From: Linnemannia hyalina
Taxonomy: Eukaryota > Mortierellomycota > Mortierellomycetes > Mortierellales > Mortierellaceae
Reading direction: 5' to 3'
DNA length: 64,000 nucleotides
Assembly (NCBI GenBank): GCA_019671135.1
Contig: JAHRHY010000019.1
Coordinates: forward strand, 310,001 to 374,000
The position numbers and the translations under genes are program-made. The notes beneath the pieces were generated by a model. That model had not been told where the DNA came from and searched no databases. It worked only from the letters and a program-made list of their open reading frames with translations. Below are positions 1 to 9,214 of the stretch, one piece after another; position 1 is the first letter of the stretch; each line of letters opens with the position of its first letter.

Positions 1-70
1 CTGGTGAGGCCGTTCCTTCAAACAAGGTCTCTGTATTCGTTTTTTTTTCATGAACCAAGGACAGAGGGAG

Positions 71-484
71 GGGGGTTGTTCTCGGTCTGATAGACTCAGG
101 CCGCACTATGAACAAACACGGTCGCTGGTGGCTGTCGCCCAATCAGAACAGCAGGCAGACTTTGCCGTCAGTCGTAGTAATGGCAGGCTGTTTCTGCAAC
201 CGTGTCCCACCCAAAGCTCTACGGGACCACATGGAGCCAAGCCCTCTGCGGACCATGCCCGAATCAATCGGGCTCAGACTGCCTTTGAAGTTCAAGTCCC
301 CAACTCCTGATGCGGGGTCTTCTTTATTGATACAAGAACAAGAGTGAACTTGCTGCTCCACAGCCATCCAGGGGTCACTGGATGGACGGGTGCGTGTTTT
401 AAAAGCTGTTCCGCGCGAGTGGTCCTCTGGAATTCAGACTGGGCGGGCGTTCTTGGTCTGCCCTTCAGATCCGGACCGACCCCC
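71..484 (+). repeat. Left 414-bp direct repeat of the mobile element
   Basis: Matches 8437-8850 base for base apart from G at 103 versus T at 8469. Its ends form an imperfect inverted repeat (about 15 of 20 positions match) starting GGGGGT. Near its right end is an 8-bp-arm hairpin (364-371 with 378-385) followed by TTTTAAAA. Read on the - strand it contains AATAAA (complement of 323-328), about 165 bases past the transposase stop, so it probably supplies that gene's 3' end. Short reading frames inside it look like no known protein. Confidence 0.85.
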
Positions 485-492
485 TTAGAGAA

Positions 493-1911
493 CTATTCGA
501 AGCTCTGAATGGACTTTAGGTACTCGGCGACCTTGCTATTGTCACTGACCTCCAAGGCTGGCACCCATGTGGCTATACTCAAACCACCACTCTTCTGTAT
601 GATGTGATACTCTCTCCCACTGCCTTCTCCTCGATGGCTGACGACCTTGTCCACTTCGTACTCTCTGTCATCGTCCCCAGATGCCATGTTGTCATCAGCT
701 GGCGTGTGAGGGGGGGTAGCCATGTCGAAGAACGCCTTCCGCGTGGTGAGCAAACCTCTGCTATGGGACAGCTTGACCTTGATGTTCGGAAGAGCGTACA
801 TGGTCTCCTGCTCTGTCTTGCTGGGGTAGTCAAAGCCGTCCTGAAGCCAGAGCGTATGATGTTGTTCAGTGGGTATACTCCTGAGTGCAACGAACCTCTT
901 GATGTTCATCAGGAGACACGCTAGCTTGTACTGAGCACCGAACGTCTCTTTCTCTGCTACTTTGTTCACAACCGTATGGCTGAACTTGGTGAACGTCGAC
1001 TGCATCTCCCCGAAATAGCTCTCAATACGAGAACGGAAGCTCCCGAAGATCTCATTGTAGGCCTTCTCTTCCTCAGTCAGTGCAATTCCACGCATCTTGC
1101 GGATTGGATAGCAGAAGTTCTCATACTGGAGCTCGTCCGCGCTGTCCAGTAGCTTACCGATGAATAGACTGTACCCGCCATCCAACGCAACACAGTCCAA
1201 CTTGTGGATCTTGTTTTGGATGCCCATACGAAGGAGCATGGTCCCGTCATTGTAGTCACGGCATGGCGCGGGGGCGGATACAAACAAGACCATGTTGTTC
1301 ATGTCTGTGCACACTTGCACACGGAAGCCCGACTTCTTCAGCTTGTATGAATACAGACTAGCTTTGTCTGCGTTCGCGTAGATGATCCTTGAGTCATGGC
1401 CGTCCAGGTTCAGTGTCACGTTCTTGAATGGCTCTGGGTTCCTTTCGGCAGCGAGATGACGCGACTTCATTGTTGAGAACATCTCAGACAGCATTGTGGT
1501 CAGAAAGCGGTTTAGTGCAGCAGGGTTGTGCATGTAGAACTCCTTGTGGATGGTGTGGAAGGAGGTCTTCGGGATGTACCGTGCCATATCGCTCAAGGAG
1601 ATCCCCTTCACGAGCACGTAGAGTAGCATGACGCCCTTCTCAACATTCCTGTATGGGCAGGAGAATGCTCTAGTGCCAAAGATCACGGTCAAGAAGAAGA
1701 ACACAGGTATGACCCCCAGGCGGTTCAACACAAACGTCTTGATGCTGTCGATGTCGTTCACAGCAGCGATCTCTGTGCGGTGATGCTTCACTCTGTCGAT
1801 GATAGGCCAGTCCGTGTACAGGAACTTCCAGTAGTTCTGTACGATGGCATCGTACTCAAGCGCCTCATCCATATTATGACACACCAGATGCTTCTCTGAA
1901 AAAGCACACAT
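493..1911 (-). CDS. DDE-superfamily transposase with C-terminal chromodomain
   Basis: Protein of 472 aa, probably the enzyme that cuts and joins the ends of the surrounding element. A helical N-terminal region (about 1-160) precedes a core with candidate catalytic acids D170 (LNLDGHD), D244 (VALDGGY) and E297 (RIESYFGE). This layout is that of the DDE_Tnp_4 / Harbinger-like group of RNase H-fold endonucleases. A low-complexity acidic linker leads to residues about 418-469, which have the chromodomain pattern: YEVDKVVSHR, an aromatic strand, then TWVPALEV and a closing helix. Chromodomains bind modified histones, so insertion could be steered to particular chromatin (inference). The start could be M1 or M14, and an upstream exon cannot be excluded because TTTTTCAG precedes residue 6. 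The stop lies 9 bp from the left direct repeat. The subfamily is uncertain. Confidence 0.8.
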   Translation of the reverse strand: MCAFSEKHLVCHNMDEALEYDAIVQNYWKFLYTDWPIIDRVKHHRTEIAAVNDIDSIKTFVLNRLGVIPVFFFLTVIFGTRAFSCPYRNVEKGVMLLYVLVKGISLSDMARYIPKTSFHTIHKEFYMHNPAALNRFLTTMLSEMFSTMKSRHLAAERNPEPFKNVTLNLDGHDSRIIYANADKASLYSYKLKKSGFRVQVCTDMNNMVLFVSAPAPCRDYNDGTMLLRMGIQNKIHKLDCVALDGGYSLFIGKLLDSADELQYENFCYPIRKMRGIALTEEEKAYNEIFGSFRSRIESYFGEMQSTFTKFSHTVVNKVAEKETFGAQYKLACLLMNIKRFVALRSIPTEQHHTLWLQDGFDYPSKTEQETMYALPNIKVKLSHSRGLLTTRKAFFDMATPPHTPADDNMASGDDDREYEVDKVVSHRGEGSGREYHIIQKSGGLSIATWVPALEVSDNSKVAEYLKSIQSFE

Positions 1912-1947
1912 GAGGCAAGATCACTTTTAAAGAAAACGCACGACCAT

Positions 1948-2000
1948 GGGGCCAGAAGGCAAAGTATCTTTCTTAGAGAGCTACTCTGCCTTCTGGCCCC
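1948..2000 (-). repeat. Hairpin repeat copy A
   Basis: Nineteen-base arms 1948-1966 and 1982-2000 (one mismatch) around a 15-nt loop; the arms read GGGGCCAGAAGGC and its complement. It lies between the coiled-coil gene and the transposase, both on the - strand, shortly after an AATAAAAA signal (complement near 2033-2040). TTTAAA follows on the transposase side. The wider module, including CCCGGGTAAACATTA, is shared with copy C. It could act in transcript termination or processing, or be a small inserted repeat. Confidence 0.85.
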
Positions 2001-2077
2001 CGGGTAAACATTACGCCGGTCGGGTTGCCTTTTTATTCAAAGTCGGTCGAGCTACACATGGGAGGATCTGCTACTTG

Positions 2078-2752
2078 CTACTCTCGTGTGTGGATGCCGA
2101 AGACACTTGTGATGTACTCCACCATCTCATCCTCTGTGTGGCCCTCCTTGAGAACGAAGTTGCGGCGACTCGACTTGATGGGCGCCTCCTTGTCATCCTT
2201 GATACGCTGGAAGACATTGTGTCCTCTCGGGGAGCGGTTGAATCGTAGCTCGTTCATCACAATAGCATCGAGCTCCGGGTTGTCAGCCTTGAACTGGTTC
2301 AAGGTGCGGTCAACAGCCTTTTGCTGCAGAGTGAAGAGGCGATAACCACCGACAGGCAATGGCTGTGGCGATCGGAACTTCAAGACAACAAAGACCTCCT
2401 GCTGTCTAGGTGGCCGTGTGAGGATACGGTCACGGTTGGCTTCCTGGCGGGCACGCTCACTGTTGGTAAGGGCATCGCGAGTGTTTTGCAGCTCGAGTTG
2501 GGTCTCATCAAGCTTGGCCAGTGTGTCCTCAAGCTCTTCCTGTGTCGATGCAAGGCCATCGTTCGCATCCATGAGGTCTATCTGTGTGCTCCTGAGCTCG
2601 AGTGAGACAGCCGCCAGCTCAATGCGCAGTGCCTCAATAGCAGACTCCTGTGGCTTGTCTTGAGGCAAAGCGTGTTAGTGTGCTGGCATGCTGTTGTGAA
2701 GGCTTAGAAGCATGTAGAAGGCATGTTGAAGAAGGGACATACTGACGGTCAT
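2078..2752 (-). CDS. Coiled-coil protein of the mobile element, with a virus-like C-terminal domain
   Basis: Best read as two exons, 2743-2752 and 2078-2658 (donor A|GTATGT, acceptor CTCAAG, branch-like CACTAAC), giving 196 aa starting MTVNKPQESA. The long frame itself has no ATG, which supports the tiny first exon. Residues about 10-75 are a strong coiled coil with regular leucines (IELAAVSLELRSTQIDL and onward). The basic C-terminal half includes GYRLFTLQQKAVDRTL and FNRSPRGHNVFQRIKDD. That half resembles the C-terminal DUF3627/MSV199-type region found behind coiled coils in large DNA virus proteins; this is from memory and tentative. It lies between the transposase and the CRN gene and ends with an AATAAA signal. 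It may be a DNA-binding or oligomerising accessory protein. Function unproven. Confidence 0.55.
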
Positions 2753-3240
2753 GGTTCAGTGTGGGTAGTGTGGGATTAGACGTGAGCGACGAAGTGGAGA
2801 GTAGGTGAATGAGGAATGGAGGAGCGAAGGAATGGAAGGCCTCCCATGGAGTGCTCAGAGTTCACTGCATTGGTGAAAGCGGGATGAGAAGAGATGTGAC
2901 ACATAGATGAGATTGTGATCGGCTTTTTCAACATGCACGCATTCACACTCAAACGCCATGAGGCTTTCAGTCAAGGTCACGTTTCGACCCTCCCTTATTG
3001 ACATTGATTGAGCCAGACTCGCAGTACGTTTTTCTCTCTCTAGAAAGTAGATGTGAGGCTGGCTCCTTCTCATTAAGAGAGGGTTGGTCAATAAGAGATT
3101 AGTGATGCAGTGCACAGCGCAAGCTCGACTATTGAACATGTGTATTACAGACAGCTAGAAGTACAACGACTATGACGTGAAGAAGCCAGGTTTGAGCTAG
3201 ATGTGAAGAAGCCAGGTTTGAGCTAGACTAGCGCGCTAAG
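2753..3240. other. Gene-free stretch inside the mobile element
   Basis: About 490 bp between the coiled-coil and CRN genes with no convincing frame. It holds the 3' side of the CRN gene, a 26-bp tandem duplication (3177-3227) and the palindrome-rich sequence AGCGCGCTAAGCTAGACGCGC. The upstream region of the coiled-coil gene, just above 2753, has CACACTACCCACACTGAACC before the proposed ATG on the - strand. Confidence 0.5.
3177..3227 (+). repeat. Two-copy 26-bp tandem repeat
   Basis: The 25-base unit GTGAAGAAGCCAGG...AGCTAGA occurs at 3177-3201 and again at 3203-3227, just beyond the CRN stop codon. It probably reflects local slippage; no function is suggested. Confidence 0.85.
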
Positions 3241-4892
3241 CTAGACGCGCTGCATCTTGCCTGTTGAATGAGACGACTGCTCAGATGTGAAGAACTTCTG
3301 CTTCTTGAGCTGGAGCTCGCGTCCTGGGATCTCCGAGTGCATCTTCCTCATGAGCCACACAATCTGGCCCAGCACAGACTCGGCTTCGACTCTCCAGGTG
3401 TCCTTGTCATAGTTGATGATGTCCTTCAGCTTCGATATCCTGAACTTGGGCCGGTCTCCAGACTCTTGTGACTGGTCGATGGAGCATTCCACGAAGTACC
3501 AGTTGATGGCATCAGTGACAATGCCATACGCTCTCAAAGGGACGGAACTGTCCTCTTCTCGCTCTTCATCTCCATTGTCGTCGCTGCTGCGCTTGCGCTT
3601 TCTCACCGTCAACGATGACTCCAGCTGAACAAGGTTCTGTGCCAAACCCTTGCGGTAGTCCTCATGCTTGACCTCTGTCACGCCCAGTATGTGTCTCGAA
3701 CCGTCGTTTGCAAGAGCCTCGATAGCATAGTCGACCTTGCCATGCCCGTGCCTGCCTCGAAGCGGTCTCTCAGGTGCGAGTGTCAGCTCGCCATTGAAGA
3801 TCAGGACGGCCTGTGTGAGGAACGAAGCTACATAGGCAGAGCATGTGGCTTCGTTGGCTGTATCTAAGGGGACGGCCCGTATCCTGGAGTCAAGCTCGTC
3901 AAGCAGTCTCCGTAGCGACTCCTTATGTAAGTTCGAGTCAAGTGGCTCCGTCGAGATGCCGGTGAAGGGCGGTAAGTCAGACATGGTGGGTGTTTCCATG
4001 TTCGATATCTCATACAGGCTGTTGACCTCCTTGAATGTGAAATCCGTGTACTTCTTGGTCGGGGTCTCCAGAGCCACTGTTAGTGTCTTCGTGTTCGTCT
4101 TCGAGTACTGCTTGATGATATTTCTAAATCGTGTGTCGTTACTGGGGTGCTCAGTCCCTCCGCCTTCATGTTGAGGAGTCCCGCGTGCATGAATGATTGC
4201 CAACACGGCGTCGCCGTCCTCTCGGTCGGGATATTCATCGTAGATGGCCCTCTCCAGCTCCTTAATGCTCGTTGTCTCAGTGTCTGTCGTCCAGGAGAAA
4301 CACTCGCTGCGGTTCGGCCGCAAGACGACGTTCAATACAACGATGCTCTTGCCCCCACGCAGGTCCTCGATCTCTTGACGAAGAGCCTCCAACTCGAGAG
4401 TGTGTGGCGTGCCTAGTTTTTTAAAAAAGCAGAGTTAAGAGATTAGTAAGCACAGTGCACGGACCATGGGGCTAGAAGGCAGAGTATCTCTCTAAGAAAG
4501 AACATCTGCCTTCTGCCCCCCTCCGGCTAAACTCGCATGCGACATCATCCGGCTAAACACATACCTTTGGATCGCTCGATAATGATGTGGATTGATTTCT
4601 TCGACAGCGTCTTCTTTTTGAAGAACTCAGAGATTTCATATGTTGCCTTGAGTTTCTCCTTTTCAGTCACAGAGTCGAGCAGAATAGGAACGTCGTCGTC
4701 GTCGTCAGGAATGGAGACGCGCCAGAGCACCAAGTTGTTGGCGGTGATGTCGTCGAAAGCGGGTGCTTGTTTGGACTTGATTGCGTCCTTGAGGTCGTCG
4801 ACAGTGGCAGTTGGATTCACCTTGACCGAGAATGCACCCGACGCCGGCTCGCCGCTGATGAGACAGAAGAGTGTGAGTGTGTTTGTCGCCAT
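3241..4892 (-). CDS. Crinkler (CRN) protein: ubiquitin-like header plus PD-(D/E)xK nuclease-like domain
   Basis: Two exons, 4565-4892 and 3241-4412, joined over a 152-nt intron (donor AAAG|GTATGT, branch TACTAAT, acceptor AACTAG) in conserved phase, giving 499 aa. Residues 1-109 are a typical CRN header: LTLFCLISGE, DLKDAIKSKQ, FDDITANNLVLWRVSIP and the final IHIIIERS. The middle part is variable. The C-terminal domain has the restriction-endonuclease-fold pattern: candidate D337 in GHGKVDYAI, E356-V-K358 in VTEVKHED, and a following glutamine helix (AQNLVQLES). A basic cluster RKRKR (about 380-384) could be a nuclear localisation signal. In known CRNs such domains act in the nucleus on DNA; here activity is inferred. 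Its place beside a transposase and a primase-helicase suggests it is element cargo or an element factor. The frame is intact. Confidence 0.85.
4468..4520 (-). repeat. Hairpin repeat copy B, inside the CRN intron
   Basis: Arms about 4468-4484 and 4504-4520, weaker than copies A and C because the stem carries mismatches (GGGGCTAGAAGGC against GCCTTCTGCCCC). The flank GTGCACGGACCATGG is shared with copy C. It sits in the intron separating the CRN header exon from the effector exon, so it may mark the junction at which the two halves were joined. Confidence 0.75.
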
Positions 4893-5143
4893 GGGTGTGT
4901 GTGTGAACGGAGAGAGGTGCGCTTGTGAATGCTGTGTGTGTGTGTGTGTGTGTGTGCGAAGATGCCCACTCCTTTATTGATGGTTCTGTTGATGGTGACG
5001 TGTACAGAAAGCCAGTCACGACCATGACTCCCAGGTCTCTCTTATTGACTAACCCTCTTTAATCGACTATAACCACGTTTTTTAAGTGATCGTACCTGCC
5101 TCTCCTTACAAGACCGCCTCTCCTTCTTGCGCAGCTCAACAAC
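4893..5143. promoter_or_regulatory. Shared promoter region of the CRN and primase-helicase genes
   Basis: A 251-bp gap between divergently transcribed genes. It contains a (TG)n tract at about 4937-4957 and CCTCTTTAATCGAC with GTTTTTTAAGTG upstream of the primase-helicase ATG. There is no clear TATA box. Co-expression of the two genes is an inference from the geometry. Confidence 0.5.
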
Positions 5144-8056
5144 ATGACCCACAAGTTTGAATCCACCTACTTCTTCAAGACCGACGAGGATCAACCCAAA
5201 GGACCTCAAGCCAGATGTCACGAGTGGAGCGATAAGAACTCCCACAAGTTCTTTGTTGCCATCGATGGACCACGGCGCTTTGAGTACTCGAGCTACAAAG
5301 ACCCGGCCAGGTTCTTAGAGGCGTATGCTGATGTCCCAGACGCTGAGCGATGCTTTTTTGAACAGATCCGTGAAGGCCAGGCCTGTAACGAGTACTATGA
5401 CATCGACTGGACTCTCGGTCAAGTCGCAGACGAGAGCGACATCTTGAGACTGGAACAGCAGGTGTTCACTGCGTTCTTGAATGTGCGCAACCAACATGCA
5501 CCAGACTATCCTCTCGACATAGCACATTGTCGTGTATTGAGTGCATCCAATAACAAGAAGATATCACTCCACATCGTCATTCCAACATATGTGTTCGAGA
5601 ACAATAACATGCACATGAAAGCCTTCGTGCTTGCATTCCAGGACACTTGGAAGCGTTCGGCACCCAACGAGGACTCTGCGCTGCTCGAAGGCCATATCGA
5701 TATGGGGGTCTACAACAGGAACCGAATCATGCGGATCCTTGGGAGCTGTAAGTTAAAAGAACCAAGTCGTCCACTGCTTCGAGCCGTGTGGCATGAGCCA
5801 TCCATGGTGGCTGAAGACGAAGAATTTCTCATCACCAACATTGGACCTGACTGTATCCAGGTGACTTGTTCGACCCAAGAAGTCGTGCGAGCACCGTCAA
5901 CGTCAAGAAGTCCTCGAACGTGTCGTGATCAAGTCCAGTCGACAATGCCCCAGCAGCTTGTGGATACTGTGAAGGCTAAGTTCATGCAGACGCCACAGGC
6001 GACCCAGTTCGAGATGCATTGCAAGCAAGACTGTGCGATGATATTCAGGCTGGAACGCAAGGCGGAGGGACACTGTATCATATGTAAGAGAGAGCACGGC
6101 CGGGAGAATGCGTATCTGAGTCTTGCTAAGTCCGGCGCGATCTTCTTTCATTGCCATCGATCCTGCAGTCCAGCAGGTGTTGAGGTGTGCAAGCGGGATC
6201 TCGCTCTTGCAGTCGAAATCGAAGTTGTTATGGCCTTACAGACGCCCCATGGACTGACGCGTGCGGACATCTTGGACGATGCTCGGTTCCTGCCCTGGAA
6301 CCACCTGGCGCCACTTGAACACTTGCAACTTGGACACGGTAAGCTTGAGGTCCGTGGGCCGCAGCCTCCCAGCCTGTTGATTCGATGCGACACGGGTGGC
6401 GGCAAGACCGTGTACACAGAAGAACTTGTCAAGGCCAACAAGAAGTCCCGATTCGTTGCCATCACCTGTCGGCGGTCGCTGGCGGACATGCTGGAAGAGC
6501 GACTGGGCTTCGAGAACTACCAGGATATCTCGGACATTATTGCTTGTGACTGGGTGGTCGTTCAAGCAGAGTCGTTGTACAAAATCAATCTGAAGTTCTA
6601 CTGCGAAGATACGATCCTGATCCTGGATGAAGTCAGCTCGCTGATCAAGCAGATGTGCAGCGACAAGACCCATGGCAACAAGCACAATCTCAATCTACAG
6701 GTCTTCGAGCGGCTCATCCAACGAGCGACCCGAGTAATCTGTCTTGACGCGGATCTGTCTGACGAGGAGGTCGAGATAATGAAGAGTCTTCGCAGTGACT
6801 TCATCGTCTGGAACAACACGTTCCAACAGCAGAAGGATGACAACGTTGTCTTGTTTGATTCCAAGATGAAGCTCATCCAGGAGGCACTGGACCTGCTTCG
6901 ACTTCACAAGCGGCTGTGGATCTCCAGCACCATGAGTGCCAGATGTACCGAGGCATTGCATGCCATGTTAACAAAAGCAGGCTACAAGGGCAAATGCGTG
7001 ACTAAGAACGTGGACGAGGCTTTCAAACGGGATGCCAGCAAGGACATCAATAACGTCATGGCCGGTCTGGATTACTTTATCCATACGCCCACCATCAGCG
7101 TCGGAGTTGACTACAACACCAAAGGCCATGTGGACTGCGTTATCGGGATCTTCAGCACATGCAGCGAAGTTGACGTTGAGAGCTGCATGCAGATGATGCG
7201 GCGTGTGCGCCATGTCAATGATAAGACATACCTGGTGCATGTAGACGCTGCCATCAAGGATCTTCCAGCTACAGCACCAGAAGTCAAGGACTGGATCTGC
7301 AATCAACTCGACATCGTTACAGGCAAAGTCCGATGGAGCTCCACATTGAAGTTGCAGTTTGACGATGCCAACAACCTCACCATCCCTGATGATCTGTATC
7401 ACCGCATGTACTGCCATGTGATGGCCAAGAAGCATCTCTCCATGAACAACTTCCGGTCACGGCTTATCCGACGAATGACACAGGCTGGATGCATTGTCAC
7501 CGGCAGGGGTGACAAACTTCCCAGGGGCCATCCGATTCCTAAGGAGCTGAAAGAGAAGGAGAAAGAGATCGCAGCCGCCTGGCATCAGCAGATTGCCAGC
7601 GCAGGTGCAATTAGTCCAGACGAGTTCGAGAGGCTTTCTCGTGGAACACGAGAGTTGGATTCTGATCAGCGGGCTTCAGTGCACAGGTTTGCACTCATGC
7701 GAGCGTATGATGTCCAGGAACATGGCACGATCACCGAAGAGTGGGTCAGAACGTACGACAAGCCACACGAGAAGGAGTGTTACAGGAATCTTATGGCACT
7801 GTCTCCAAGCTGTGGACCGTCTTTGAAATCATGCTTGGAGGTTGTGCAGCAGCGGGAGGACCTTGGTCAGGATTATAGTCTGCGGGGACCAACAACCGCT
7901 GACGCGCACAGCAGGCTCGAGAGATCCCAGTTCGTGAAGCTGGGATATGTGGTTGACATCCTGTTGGCTTGCGGATTCGAGGACCCGTTCGCTACTAATG
8001 AGGTACCGGCAGAGGATATCAAGAGTAGAGTCGATGGGATATGGACAGTAAGATGA
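5144..8056 (+). CDS. Primase-helicase: archaeo-eukaryotic primase fused to an SF2 origin-binding-type helicase
   Basis: An uninterrupted 970-aa frame. The N-terminal part (about 1-250) has the primase signature: NEYYDIDW with D86 and D88, KKISLHIVIP (H143), and VYNRNRIMRILGSCKL with its conserved arginines, as in herpesvirus/NCLDV-type primases and PrimPol. A zinc-binding stretch follows (C311, C314, then HCHRSC at 336-341). The helicase has Walker A CDTGGGKT (415-422), the DEVS box (495-498) and a late motif VGVDYNTKGHVD, close to the origin-of-replication-binding (Herpes_ori_bp) helicases. Such proteins prime and unwind DNA in large DNA viruses and in elements derived from them. It reads divergently from the CRN gene. 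The end of the frame looks premature; see the next feature. Confidence 0.85.
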   Translation: MTHKFESTYFFKTDEDQPKGPQARCHEWSDKNSHKFFVAIDGPRRFEYSSYKDPARFLEAYADVPDAERCFFEQIREGQACNEYYDIDWTLGQVADESDILRLEQQVFTAFLNVRNQHAPDYPLDIAHCRVLSASNNKKISLHIVIPTYVFENNNMHMKAFVLAFQDTWKRSAPNEDSALLEGHIDMGVYNRNRIMRILGSCKLKEPSRPLLRAVWHEPSMVAEDEEFLITNIGPDCIQVTCSTQEVVRAPSTSRSPRTCRDQVQSTMPQQLVDTVKAKFMQTPQATQFEMHCKQDCAMIFRLERKAEGHCIICKREHGRENAYLSLAKSGAIFFHCHRSCSPAGVEVCKRDLALAVEIEVVMALQTPHGLTRADILDDARFLPWNHLAPLEHLQLGHGKLEVRGPQPPSLLIRCDTGGGKTVYTEELVKANKKSRFVAITCRRSLADMLEERLGFENYQDISDIIACDWVVVQAESLYKINLKFYCEDTILILDEVSSLIKQMCSDKTHGNKHNLNLQVFERLIQRATRVICLDADLSDEEVEIMKSLRSDFIVWNNTFQQQKDDNVVLFDSKMKLIQEALDLLRLHKRLWISSTMSARCTEALHAMLTKAGYKGKCVTKNVDEAFKRDASKDINNVMAGLDYFIHTPTISVGVDYNTKGHVDCVIGIFSTCSEVDVESCMQMMRRVRHVNDKTYLVHVDAAIKDLPATAPEVKDWICNQLDIVTGKVRWSSTLKLQFDDANNLTIPDDLYHRMYCHVMAKKHLSMNNFRSRLIRRMTQAGCIVTGRGDKLPRGHPIPKELKEKEKEIAAAWHQQIASAGAISPDEFERLSRGTRELDSDQRASVHRFALMRAYDVQEHGTITEEWVRTYDKPHEKECYRNLMALSPSCGPSLKSCLEVVQQREDLGQDYSLRGPTTADAHSRLERSQFVKLGYVVDILLACGFEDPFATNEVPAEDIKSRVDGIWTVR

Positions 8057-8274
8057 CCCAGATTTGCACTAGTCTCAAGATACGAAGACCAAGATCCACG
8101 AGCTGTACGTTCAAGAGCAAGCTCGCATTTATCAACACAGTGTTGCTTGAAGTCCTTGGTGCCAAGATCGGAACTCCTGAATTCAACAAGCGCAGGACAA
8201 AGTACTGCCTCAAGCACTGCTCGAGCGTCGGCTCTGCCAATGACAGCCCACTCAGGCGTCGTTCAACACAATAA
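8041..8274 (+). pseudogene. Out-of-frame C-terminal continuation of the primase-helicase
   Basis: A 77-codon frame overlaps the end of the 970-aa frame by 16 bases and is shifted by one base. It contains FINTVLLEVLGAKIGTPEF and a basic cysteine tail, like the C-terminal segment expected in this helicase family. It ends exactly at an AATAAA signal (ACACAATAAACTG), which argues that it belongs to the transcript. A single-base indel near 8035-8053 is the simplest cause. A 25-nt GTAAG...TAG intron would not restore the frame. A sequencing error or frameshifting is also possible. Confidence 0.5.
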
Positions 8275-8322
8275 ACTGTCATCCTTTTAAAAGACCACGC
8301 ACGTCGGTATAATGTTTACCCG

Positions 8323-8375
8323 GGGGCCAGAAGGCAGAGTAGGTCTCTAAGAAAGATACTCTGCCTTCTGGCCCC
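8323..8375 (+). repeat. Hairpin repeat copy C
   Basis: Perfect 19-bp arms 8323-8341 and 8357-8375 around a 15-nt loop. TTTTAAAA lies at 8285-8292 on one side and CTTTAAAG near 8390-8397 on the other. It begins about 50 bases past the AATAAA of the primase-helicase transcript and has the same orientation relative to transcription as copy A. It lies just before the right direct repeat. Confidence 0.9.
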
Positions 8376-8436
8376 ATGGTCCGTGCACTCTTTAAAGATG
8401 ACCTGTCATGGCGAACGGCTCTTTGCGACACAAGAA

Positions 8437-8850
8437 GGGGGTTGTTCTCGGTCTGATAGACTCAGGCCTCACTATGAACAAACACGGTCGCTGGTGGCTG
8501 TCGCCCAATCAGAACAGCAGGCAGACTTTGCCGTCAGTCGTAGTAATGGCAGGCTGTTTCTGCAACCGTGTCCCACCCAAAGCTCTACGGGACCACATGG
8601 AGCCAAGCCCTCTGCGGACCATGCCCGAATCAATCGGGCTCAGACTGCCTTTGAAGTTCAAGTCCCCAACTCCTGATGCGGGGTCTTCTTTATTGATACA
8701 AGAACAAGAGTGAACTTGCTGCTCCACAGCCATCCAGGGGTCACTGGATGGACGGGTGCGTGTTTTAAAAGCTGTTCCGCGCGAGTGGTCCTCTGGAATT
8801 CAGACTGGGCGGGCGTTCTTGGTCTGCCCTTCAGATCCGGACCGACCCCC
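8437..8850 (+). repeat. Right 414-bp direct repeat of the mobile element
   Basis: Second copy of the terminal direct repeat, same orientation as 71-484 with one observed substitution. After CCCCC at 8846-8850 the sequence switches to unrelated host DNA leading into the peptidase array. Confidence 0.85.
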
Positions 8851-9214
8851 GAGAGCGAAATACAAACGAGTACAACAATCTAGCCCATGCACACAAGGTG
8901 CGATCTGTCAACAAATAGAAAATTTCAACTTTAAATTTTTCTTTCTTTCTAGATGCGAGAGAGTCATTCATCCTTTCTTTGTTTTCTTCTTCCAATGCCA
9001 CTTTTTTTTCCCGCGGATATTTTTTCCTCGGAGACGCAGATACAAAAGTCAAGCCTAGGCACTACCATGGATCAAGGACCAACGTGAGGATAAAAGGATG
9101 TCTTTGTAAAGGTAGGTCTTTGGTACTTGTATAAAAATTTGACTATGGGATGGCAAAACCCCCCAAAAAAAAAAAAAAAAAAAAAAAAAAACACGGTTGC
9201 ACAAACACCACACA
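8851..9214 (+). promoter_or_regulatory. Upstream region of peptidase copy 1
   Basis: Contains a TATA box (TATAAAAA, 9130-9137) about 80 bp before the ATG of copy 1. An uninterrupted run of about 27 adenines (about 9165-9191) follows. CT-rich sequence at about 8938-9030 is typical of fungal promoters. Confidence 0.55.

Follow-up and report, generated by a model that had tools for sequence, protein, structure and literature searches.

The closest published concept in the literature searched, as far as the available text of the papers concerned goes, is Teratorn, a fusion of a piggyBac transposon with a herpesvirus that measures 180 kb in medaka (PMC10175614, PMC5601938). DNA transposons of the PHIS (PIF/Harbinger-ISL2EU-Spy)/IS5 type offer a second comparison, with a DDE_Tnp_4-type domain, short inverted termini, a 3-bp target duplication and small non-autonomous derivatives; in the accessible part of their classification, the PHIS groups follow the target rules TWA, ANT, CWG and TNA (PMC4482050). 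Crinkler (CRN) effectors have been linked to mobile DNA through the helitron-rich regions of P. infestans (PMC5289972), and a giant-virus-bearing contig of P. parasitica holds CRNs and a primase (PMC8204020), according to the excerpts available of both sources. Here we describe a mobile unit of 8.8 kb, running from one long direct repeat (LDR) to another at positions 71-8850 of a 64,000-nt stretch of Linnemannia hyalina DNA (the window; G000:C11:310001-374000, on contig C11 of 1,261,107 bases, in a 51.5-Mb assembly of 50 contigs). It encloses genes for a DDE transposase, a coiled-coil protein, a CRN and a primase-helicase.

Overall, the best explanation is that the unit represents a Mortierellaceae family of DDE transposons with exchangeable virus- or plasmid-type replication modules and terminal redundancy resembling that of long terminal repeats (LTRs), a reading that we consider probable. 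Transposition of the family is well supported, and we infer that it may also replicate as an episome. A sequence-only reading of this DNA had proposed a bounded mobile element between two 414-bp direct repeats, and both proposals held: the repeats, spaced 8366 bp apart, agree at 413 of 414 positions, and the unit has inverted termini, a flanking GAG/GAG duplication and related copies elsewhere in the genome. To that reading we add the outer inverted termini, the 3-bp duplication and three 63-nt palindromes (P1, P2 and P3). The two termini of an LDR, GGGGGTTGTTC at its start and a GACCCCC-type sequence at its end (the GGGGGTTGTTC...GAACGACCCCC type), are imperfect inverted copies of one another, and each single LDR carries both.

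Using the LDR and its termini as probes of the genome, we compared nine units, five of which have a perfect 3-bp flanking duplication against a mean of 0.67 when right flanks were shuffled (p ~1.2e-4). These five are the three whole elements on C11, C22 and C44 and two of the six solo LDRs (C11b and C50b). The 3-bp length was first noticed on C11, C22 and C11b; among the later-found units C44, C50b and C9b, two of three match. Scored as units of their own, none of four inner LDRs had matching 3-bp flanks, and given five of nine for whole units we conclude that everything from one LDR to the other inserted as a single unit. The terminus pattern with up to three mismatches (186+197 sites) was no commoner than its reversed control (204+187), and therefore only sites with zero or one mismatch were used, plus the two-mismatch partners of C44 left, C9b and C50a; the one-mismatch site C14:294409 and other two-mismatch sites without a partner were excluded. 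Solo LDRs represent the LDR as a unit alone, either moved in trans or left by recombination between LDRs. One of them, C11b with its TTA duplication (L040:4744-5265), sits ~110 bp ahead of where another CRN gene starts and may provide that gene with its promoter.

Within elements, the LDRs are alike. Besides the single difference on C11, the left and right tails of C22 agree at 61 of the 62 bases remaining of the right LDR (49/62 against C11), and the left LDR fragment of C44 matches its own right LDR at 167/172 positions (157/171 against the next best). Between loci, most pairs of full LDRs are 59-85% alike, with C11a and C11b at 90% and C9_R, C50b and C44a at 92-97% among themselves. Ends alike within and unlike between elements would be expected if each move copied a single template, and the near-identity of the window pair in a small element suggests a recent insertion. 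Folding of an LDR end as a hairpin was no better than that of shuffled sequences (z -0.09), and this candidate was rejected. LTR retrotransposons also have near-identical direct terminal repeats within a copy, as well as solo repeats; they differ from this element, which has the inverted termini of a DNA transposon and a DDE_Tnp_4 enzyme, and no reverse transcriptase was found among the Pfam matches of six element queries.

Features of the window element (window positions) and related units in the L. hyalina genome (contig positions); a dot marks features without strand.
Feature	Position	Strand	Remarks
Left 3-bp target duplication GAG	68..70	.	
LDR1, left long direct repeat	71..484	+	5' inverted terminus is outer 71-90, GGGGGTTGTTCT
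DDE transposase, IS5/PHIS (DDE_Tnp_4) type	496..1917	-	
Palindrome P1	1943..2005	.	immediately upstream of DDE gene
Gene 2, coiled-coil orphan protein	2081..2671	-	
CRN exon 2: ubiquitin-like/PB1-like and PD-(D/E)XK-like domains	3244..4416	-	
Palindrome P2	4463..4525	.	within CRN intron, header/nuclease exon boundary
CRN exon 1: Crinkler header PF20147	4563..4892	-	Pfam profile
PrimPol (AEP) and UL9-type SF2 helicase, 970 aa	5144..8053	+	giant-virus/plasmid-initiator type
Primase-helicase C-terminal piece, other frame	8029..8274	+	same frame as rest in C9 copy
Palindrome P3	8318..8380	.	primase/LDR2 interval
LDR2, right long direct repeat	8437..8850	+	3' inverted terminus is outer 8831-8850
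Right 3-bp target duplication GAG	8851..8853	.	
C11 window element, whole			duplication GAG
C22 whole element	157333-163790		duplication TGA
C44 whole element	1941949-1949738		7,790 bp; duplication ATA
C9 copy, right part seen	LDR 1187739-1188131		
Solo LDR C11b	C11:777853-778265		duplication TTA
Solo LDR C50b			duplication ACA
Solo LDR C9b			flanks CTA/TTA, no perfect match
Solo LDRs C2, C23, C50a			flanking 3-mers unmatched

The coding regions of the four genes in the window element hold no internal stops. Their description as four spliced genes was only partly right, because the DDE gene runs from ATG to stop with no need of an intron and the primase is a single long open reading frame (ORF) whose short C-terminal piece lies in a different frame; the CRN, and perhaps gene 2, do look spliced. 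The transposase matches DDE_Tnp_4 at 32 bits (cut-off 24.8), probably starts at MDEALEYD, and has D172, D246 and E299 invariant in 15 of 15 aligned sequences, residues that we take, from this alignment, as an intact DDE triad. With the 3-bp duplication and inverted termini, this places it close to PHIS/IS5; the NCBIfam IS5_4 match is weak (22 bits against a cut-off of 140). The enzyme had been called a "DDE-chromodomain transposase"; the C-terminal chromodomain of the window copy is degenerate and falls below the cut-off (13.5 against 25.1 bits). Relative P0057 reaches 40.9 bits and the family profile matches HP1, but a working reader domain is doubtful because the WKGY stretch that the wider family keeps is missing from the window copy. 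The genome holds at least 88 further matches to the DDE family. Relatives with DDE_Tnp_4 and chromodomain (L017-L034; 43-46% identical) crowd contig ends: on contigs longer than 500 kb, 41 of 49 lie within 80 kb of an end versus 8% expected (57 of 91 matches used), some followed by ~133-bp tandem repeats, and they are possibly a telomere-seeking family. Gene 2 is a coiled-coil orphan with a single match in the L. hyalina genome, and is fused to the DDE in gene models of two other species (P0046, P0050); its identification as a shortened CRN was rejected (BLASTP E 0.91, hhalign probability 0.1%).

By the target-duplication rule of the PHIS classification, in the part available, the element fits no named group: GAG, TGA, ATA, TTA and ACA as a set obey none of the group rules, and the TWA of PIF/Harbinger is found in one of five (TTA). 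No Myb/SANT match, the second-ORF partner of PIF/Harbinger, appeared at E up to 1 with the six element queries, and the element measures 8.8 kb against a mean of ~4.1 kb for PIF/Harbinger. It also differs from PHIS elements in having full-length direct repeats at both ends and a primase-helicase and CRN inside. "New class" is accordingly too strong for an IS5/PHIS-like transposase; the novelty is the gene combination and the LTR-like ends. New here are the three long palindromes, the ends alike within but not between elements, and the sister element C44 with its D5-type primase. No description of such an element was found in the literature searched, a search without most subscription journals.

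Could this be an ordinary cut-and-paste PHIS-type transposon with captured genes? The primase-helicase and CRN would then be passive or selfish cargo, with no episome, and the LDRs would be alike through gene conversion or youth. This alternative shares the core of the family reading, differs on replication, and is to us quite possible. It draws on the DDE_Tnp_4 match above the cut-off and the weak IS5 match, on the 3-bp duplications and short inverted termini, on C22 and C44, which look like internal-deletion copies, and on the cargo capture documented for fungal DNA transposons in the available text of PMC12730594. Against it, the association recurs with primases down to 43% identity (P0031 of L. 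exigua, fused to a DDE), which is more than passive cargo suggests; and the LDRs are direct and alike inside three elements, yet about one third different between those elements.

The finding of a virus- or plasmid-type replication protein and a CRN inside the element, also part of the sequence-only reading, was borne out by profile matches: 56 bits to Herpes_ori_bp (cut-off 20) for the primase-helicase and 90 bits to the Crinkler header PF20147 (cut-off 24.6) for the CRN. The NCBIfam equivalog-domain profile of the plasmid initiator CyRepA1 matches residues 412-884 at 222 bits against a cut-off of 200. Among the aligned primase rows with letters, 24 of 25 have DxD and 21 of 22 have sxH, motifs that we take to be those of AEP (PrimPol). 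The primase profile matches the HSV-1 origin-binding protein at E 8e-22, and PrimPol and pox D5 weakly (0.0035-0.024). HSV-1 origin-binding protein was also the top PDB match in the structure search, and predicted giant-virus structures could be aligned over ~1000 columns; the 50 structural matches listed share 10-22% sequence identity, and the best three are without a name in the tool's tables. From these sequence and model comparisons, the protein is a UL9-type PrimPol-helicase that resembles those of giant viruses and plasmid initiators. It is alignable with giant-virus origin-binding PrimPol-helicases, as predicted structures, over most of its length, and unlike those proteins and CyRepA1 its gene sits in a chromosomal transposon. 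Primase match P0001 is KI688_005279 of L. hyalina. No viral-contig relatives were found for either the primase or the DDE.

Like Teratorn, then, this is a DNA transposon carrying large-DNA-virus genes. From what the available text of the Teratorn papers gives, the two differ in transposase, target, size (180 kb versus 8.8 kb) and host (fish versus fungus), and in the fungal element only the replication protein is virus-like; the six element queries gave no piggyBac match, and the duplications do not show a TTAA target. In the accessible part of a gene annotation of Rhizophagus irregularis, "helicase-primase" stands among transposon-related terms (PMC8647823), a hint that such genes have been met before as repeats. 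An integrated virus or nuclear plasmid remnant, with the LDRs as replicon terminal repeats and the DDE inserted later, would agree with the giant-virus-type resemblance, the CyRepA1 match, the D5-type primase pieces in C44 and the palindromes. We nevertheless judge it unlikely: no capsid, polymerase B or packaging profile appears among the Pfam matches of the six element queries, DDE and primase are neighbours in several species, and the idea is already weakened because two solo 0.4-kb copies are bounded by the same kind of ends and 3-bp duplications.

Related copies in the genome retain parts of the same plan. On C22 the order is LDR, DDE, CRN header, primase and LDR end. This copy also has a 280-residue ORF with no Pfam match between CRN header and primase (L037:1148-1990), absent from the window copy, and a ~0.47-kb insertion in its DDE gene (L036:5536-6007). 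The C9 copy reads LDR, primase and CRN, with two palindromes at places matching the window element; its primase and CRN have a MULE transposase with a SWIM zinc finger nested between them (L038:6854-9709). C44 has the ends and duplication of the window type, with the DDE and UL9-type gene replaced by D5-type pieces (a PriCT_2/Prim-Pol/D5_N primase-helicase, Prim-Pol below the cut-off) that are cut short by the left LDR fragment. As it has no DDE match, it would need a transposase in trans. Several ORFs of unknown kind also lie there (L050, C44:1942544-1949938).

At its inner LDR junctions, C11 is like C22 where LDR meets DDE and like C9 where the primase side meets LDR, and the primase gene model P0002 of L. 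gamsii runs on into the same LDR2 sequence. These junctions, together with the absence of own duplications at the inner LDRs, argue against a composite in which two independent LDR miniature elements flanked a gene cluster by chance and moved together once, an origin that the double termini of a single LDR and the two solo LDRs with duplications might suggest and that we find rather improbable. A mere chance cluster in an effector- and transposon-rich region, to which the 109 CRN header matches and the many DDE relatives might point, is extremely improbable given defined ends with duplications, neighbouring genes kept in other species, and palindromes found by genome search only in the C11 and C9 elements.

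Neighbour calls in other species rest on an inferred shared contig within one species and on locus tags, with the DDE represented by the best 120 of 227 matches. Among the matches listed, primase and DDE occur together in 7 of 41 primase matches, namely the window, the fused P0031, L. schmuckeri (BG015_002644/002641, on a 9,195-bp contig), M. hygrophila (EC957_011815/011817), E. parvispora (EMPS_07559/07562, the listed CRN there being ~120 tags away), Mortierella sp. GBA35 (BGX29_011678/011681) and D. globulifera (BGZ98_007577/007578). Primase and CRN share a contig in 6 of the 41 among the matches listed: they adjoin twice in M. hygrophila (EC957_009861/009860, 010258/010257) and once in Mortierella sp. 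AD031 (BGX23_011090/011091), lie together on one 7,288-bp contig (P0007/P0173), and share a contig twice in L. elongata, at a distance not known. Neighbours of the primase of one or the other kind are thus found in seven other Mortierellaceae (L. schmuckeri, M. hygrophila, E. parvispora, GBA35, D. globulifera, L. exigua and AD031). In E. lignicola a CRN and a DDE are three tags apart (BGZ46_000131/000134). The sequence-only reading had named separate occurrence of the genes as evidence against itself: they do occur apart, as the further DDE matches and CRNs alone at C13 and C2 show, but primase-DDE and primase-CRN pairs recur in other species.

P1, P2 and P3 fold far better than shuffled sequences (z -6.2, -5.7 and -8.8), and P1 and P3 form a 77-nt inverted pair with 73/77 positions identical. 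A genome search with P1 gave eight alignments at four places only, three in the window element and one in the C9 element; it missed the second C9 palindrome and the C22 one, which were found by local alignment, and could miss other diverged copies. Positions recur: the CRN intron (C11, C9), the interval between primase and right LDR (C11, C9) and the side of the DDE start (C11, C22). In C22 a single palindrome joins the CRN header directly to the DDE, a join annotated as the fused model P0048, and gene 2 and CRN exon 2 are missing; the arrangement would fit recombination between P1 and P2. In L. exigua (P0031, P0053) and M. claussenii (P0051), single gene models span primase and then DDE on the same strand, the order expected from flipping the P1-P3 segment, although gene models can be wrong.

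The CRN combines its PF20147 header, which 24 of the 26 members in the alignment match (exon 2 alone makes up two of these 26 rows), with an exon 2 that has a PD-(D/E)XK-like motif and the predicted fold. CRN effectors with an REase domain share header and PD-(D/E)XK-like domain; what sets the element's CRN apart is that a defined DNA transposon encodes it and that its header-nuclease intron bears a palindrome. Between C9 and the window, nucleotide identity is 76% over ~650 columns of header region and palindrome intron, but amino-acid identity of the nuclease is only 31%, the likeness breaking at the palindrome-bearing intron. Stand-alone CRN nucleases at C13 and C2, which have stops, are 82-86% identical to the window nuclease in the amino acids of their main pieces. 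Three of the 109 header matches lie inside elements (C11:314575, C22:159580, C9:1195664) and a fourth nearby (C9:1198040). The suggestion that such elements could explain how CRNs spread in fungi was thus overstated: with three or four of 109 headers in such elements, they do not explain most CRN spread.

Several findings weigh against the family reading. Within the L. hyalina genome, all four genes are together in the window copy only; the 16 kb read of C9 show no DDE, and C44 has neither DDE nor UL9-type primase. Among the matches listed, 28 of the 41 primase matches share no contig with a DDE or CRN, some of them on short contigs and several on contigs longer than 70 kb (P0002, P0009, P0016, P0028, P0038). 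Four of six solo LDRs have no perfect 3-bp duplication, and the likeness of LDRs could also stem from gene conversion or recent insertion. The structural E-values for the primase-helicase are strong and the whole-model TM scores modest (TMq 0.31-0.34 for HSV-1 chains, at most 0.55 for giant-virus-type matches). Of the check first proposed for this locus, related copies elsewhere with a 3-bp duplication were found, but searches of its own genome with the joined C11 and C22 flanks found no empty sites. The C11 flanks match only themselves there. Paralogues of the C22 left flank on C4 (96%) and C5 (93%) cease to be homologous 7 bp short of the insertion, where an intron-exon-like boundary lies, so that an empty site is not demonstrated; nor do the CRN paralogues C13 and C2, which do not align with C11b ahead of the exon-2 region, provide one for that solo LDR. 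The C22, C4 and C5 loci share a ~360-bp stretch with an intron-like acceptor end, 90-93% conserved and then followed by unrelated sequence (L036:3970-4325, L053, L054), a pattern resembling exon shuffling among CRN-like genes that does not involve this element.

If the family reading is right, each element end would be a complete LDR module of ~0.4 kb, both read in the same direction. The IS5/PHIS-type DDE is likely to cut at the two outer termini, 5' on the left LDR and 3' on the right one, and to insert with a 3-bp stagger. More tentatively, the primase-helicase may amplify an excised circle with one LDR, possibly from the palindromes, and the DDE may cut the concatemer from one LDR to the next and re-insert a unit with two identical LDRs, a step that would explain LDRs matching within and not between elements. 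The CRN would be cargo, its nuclease exon exchanged at the palindrome-bearing intron. A bolder reading, that of an "integrating nuclear plasmid" as a new kind of eukaryotic mobile element, we regard as doubtful when its parts are taken jointly. It would comprise a replicating circle, started by the virus- or plasmid-type primase-helicase at palindromic origins; chromosome entry through the DDE acting on a terminally redundant LDR, with LTR-like ends made without reverse transcription; a swappable replication module, UL9-type in C11, C22 and C9 and D5-type in C44; and a P1-P3 pair through which the middle segment can invert and the CRN nuclease exon can be swapped.

In conclusion, the L. hyalina element joins three things usually treated apart: DDE cut-and-paste transposons, giant-virus and plasmid replication proteins, and Crinkler effectors. 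Swapping of CRN nuclease exons becomes testable here, because a palindrome sits in the header/nuclease intron itself. If the LDR-circle model is true, redundant ends of the LTR kind can form with no reverse transcription involved, and a transposon can house viral replication modules that are interchangeable.

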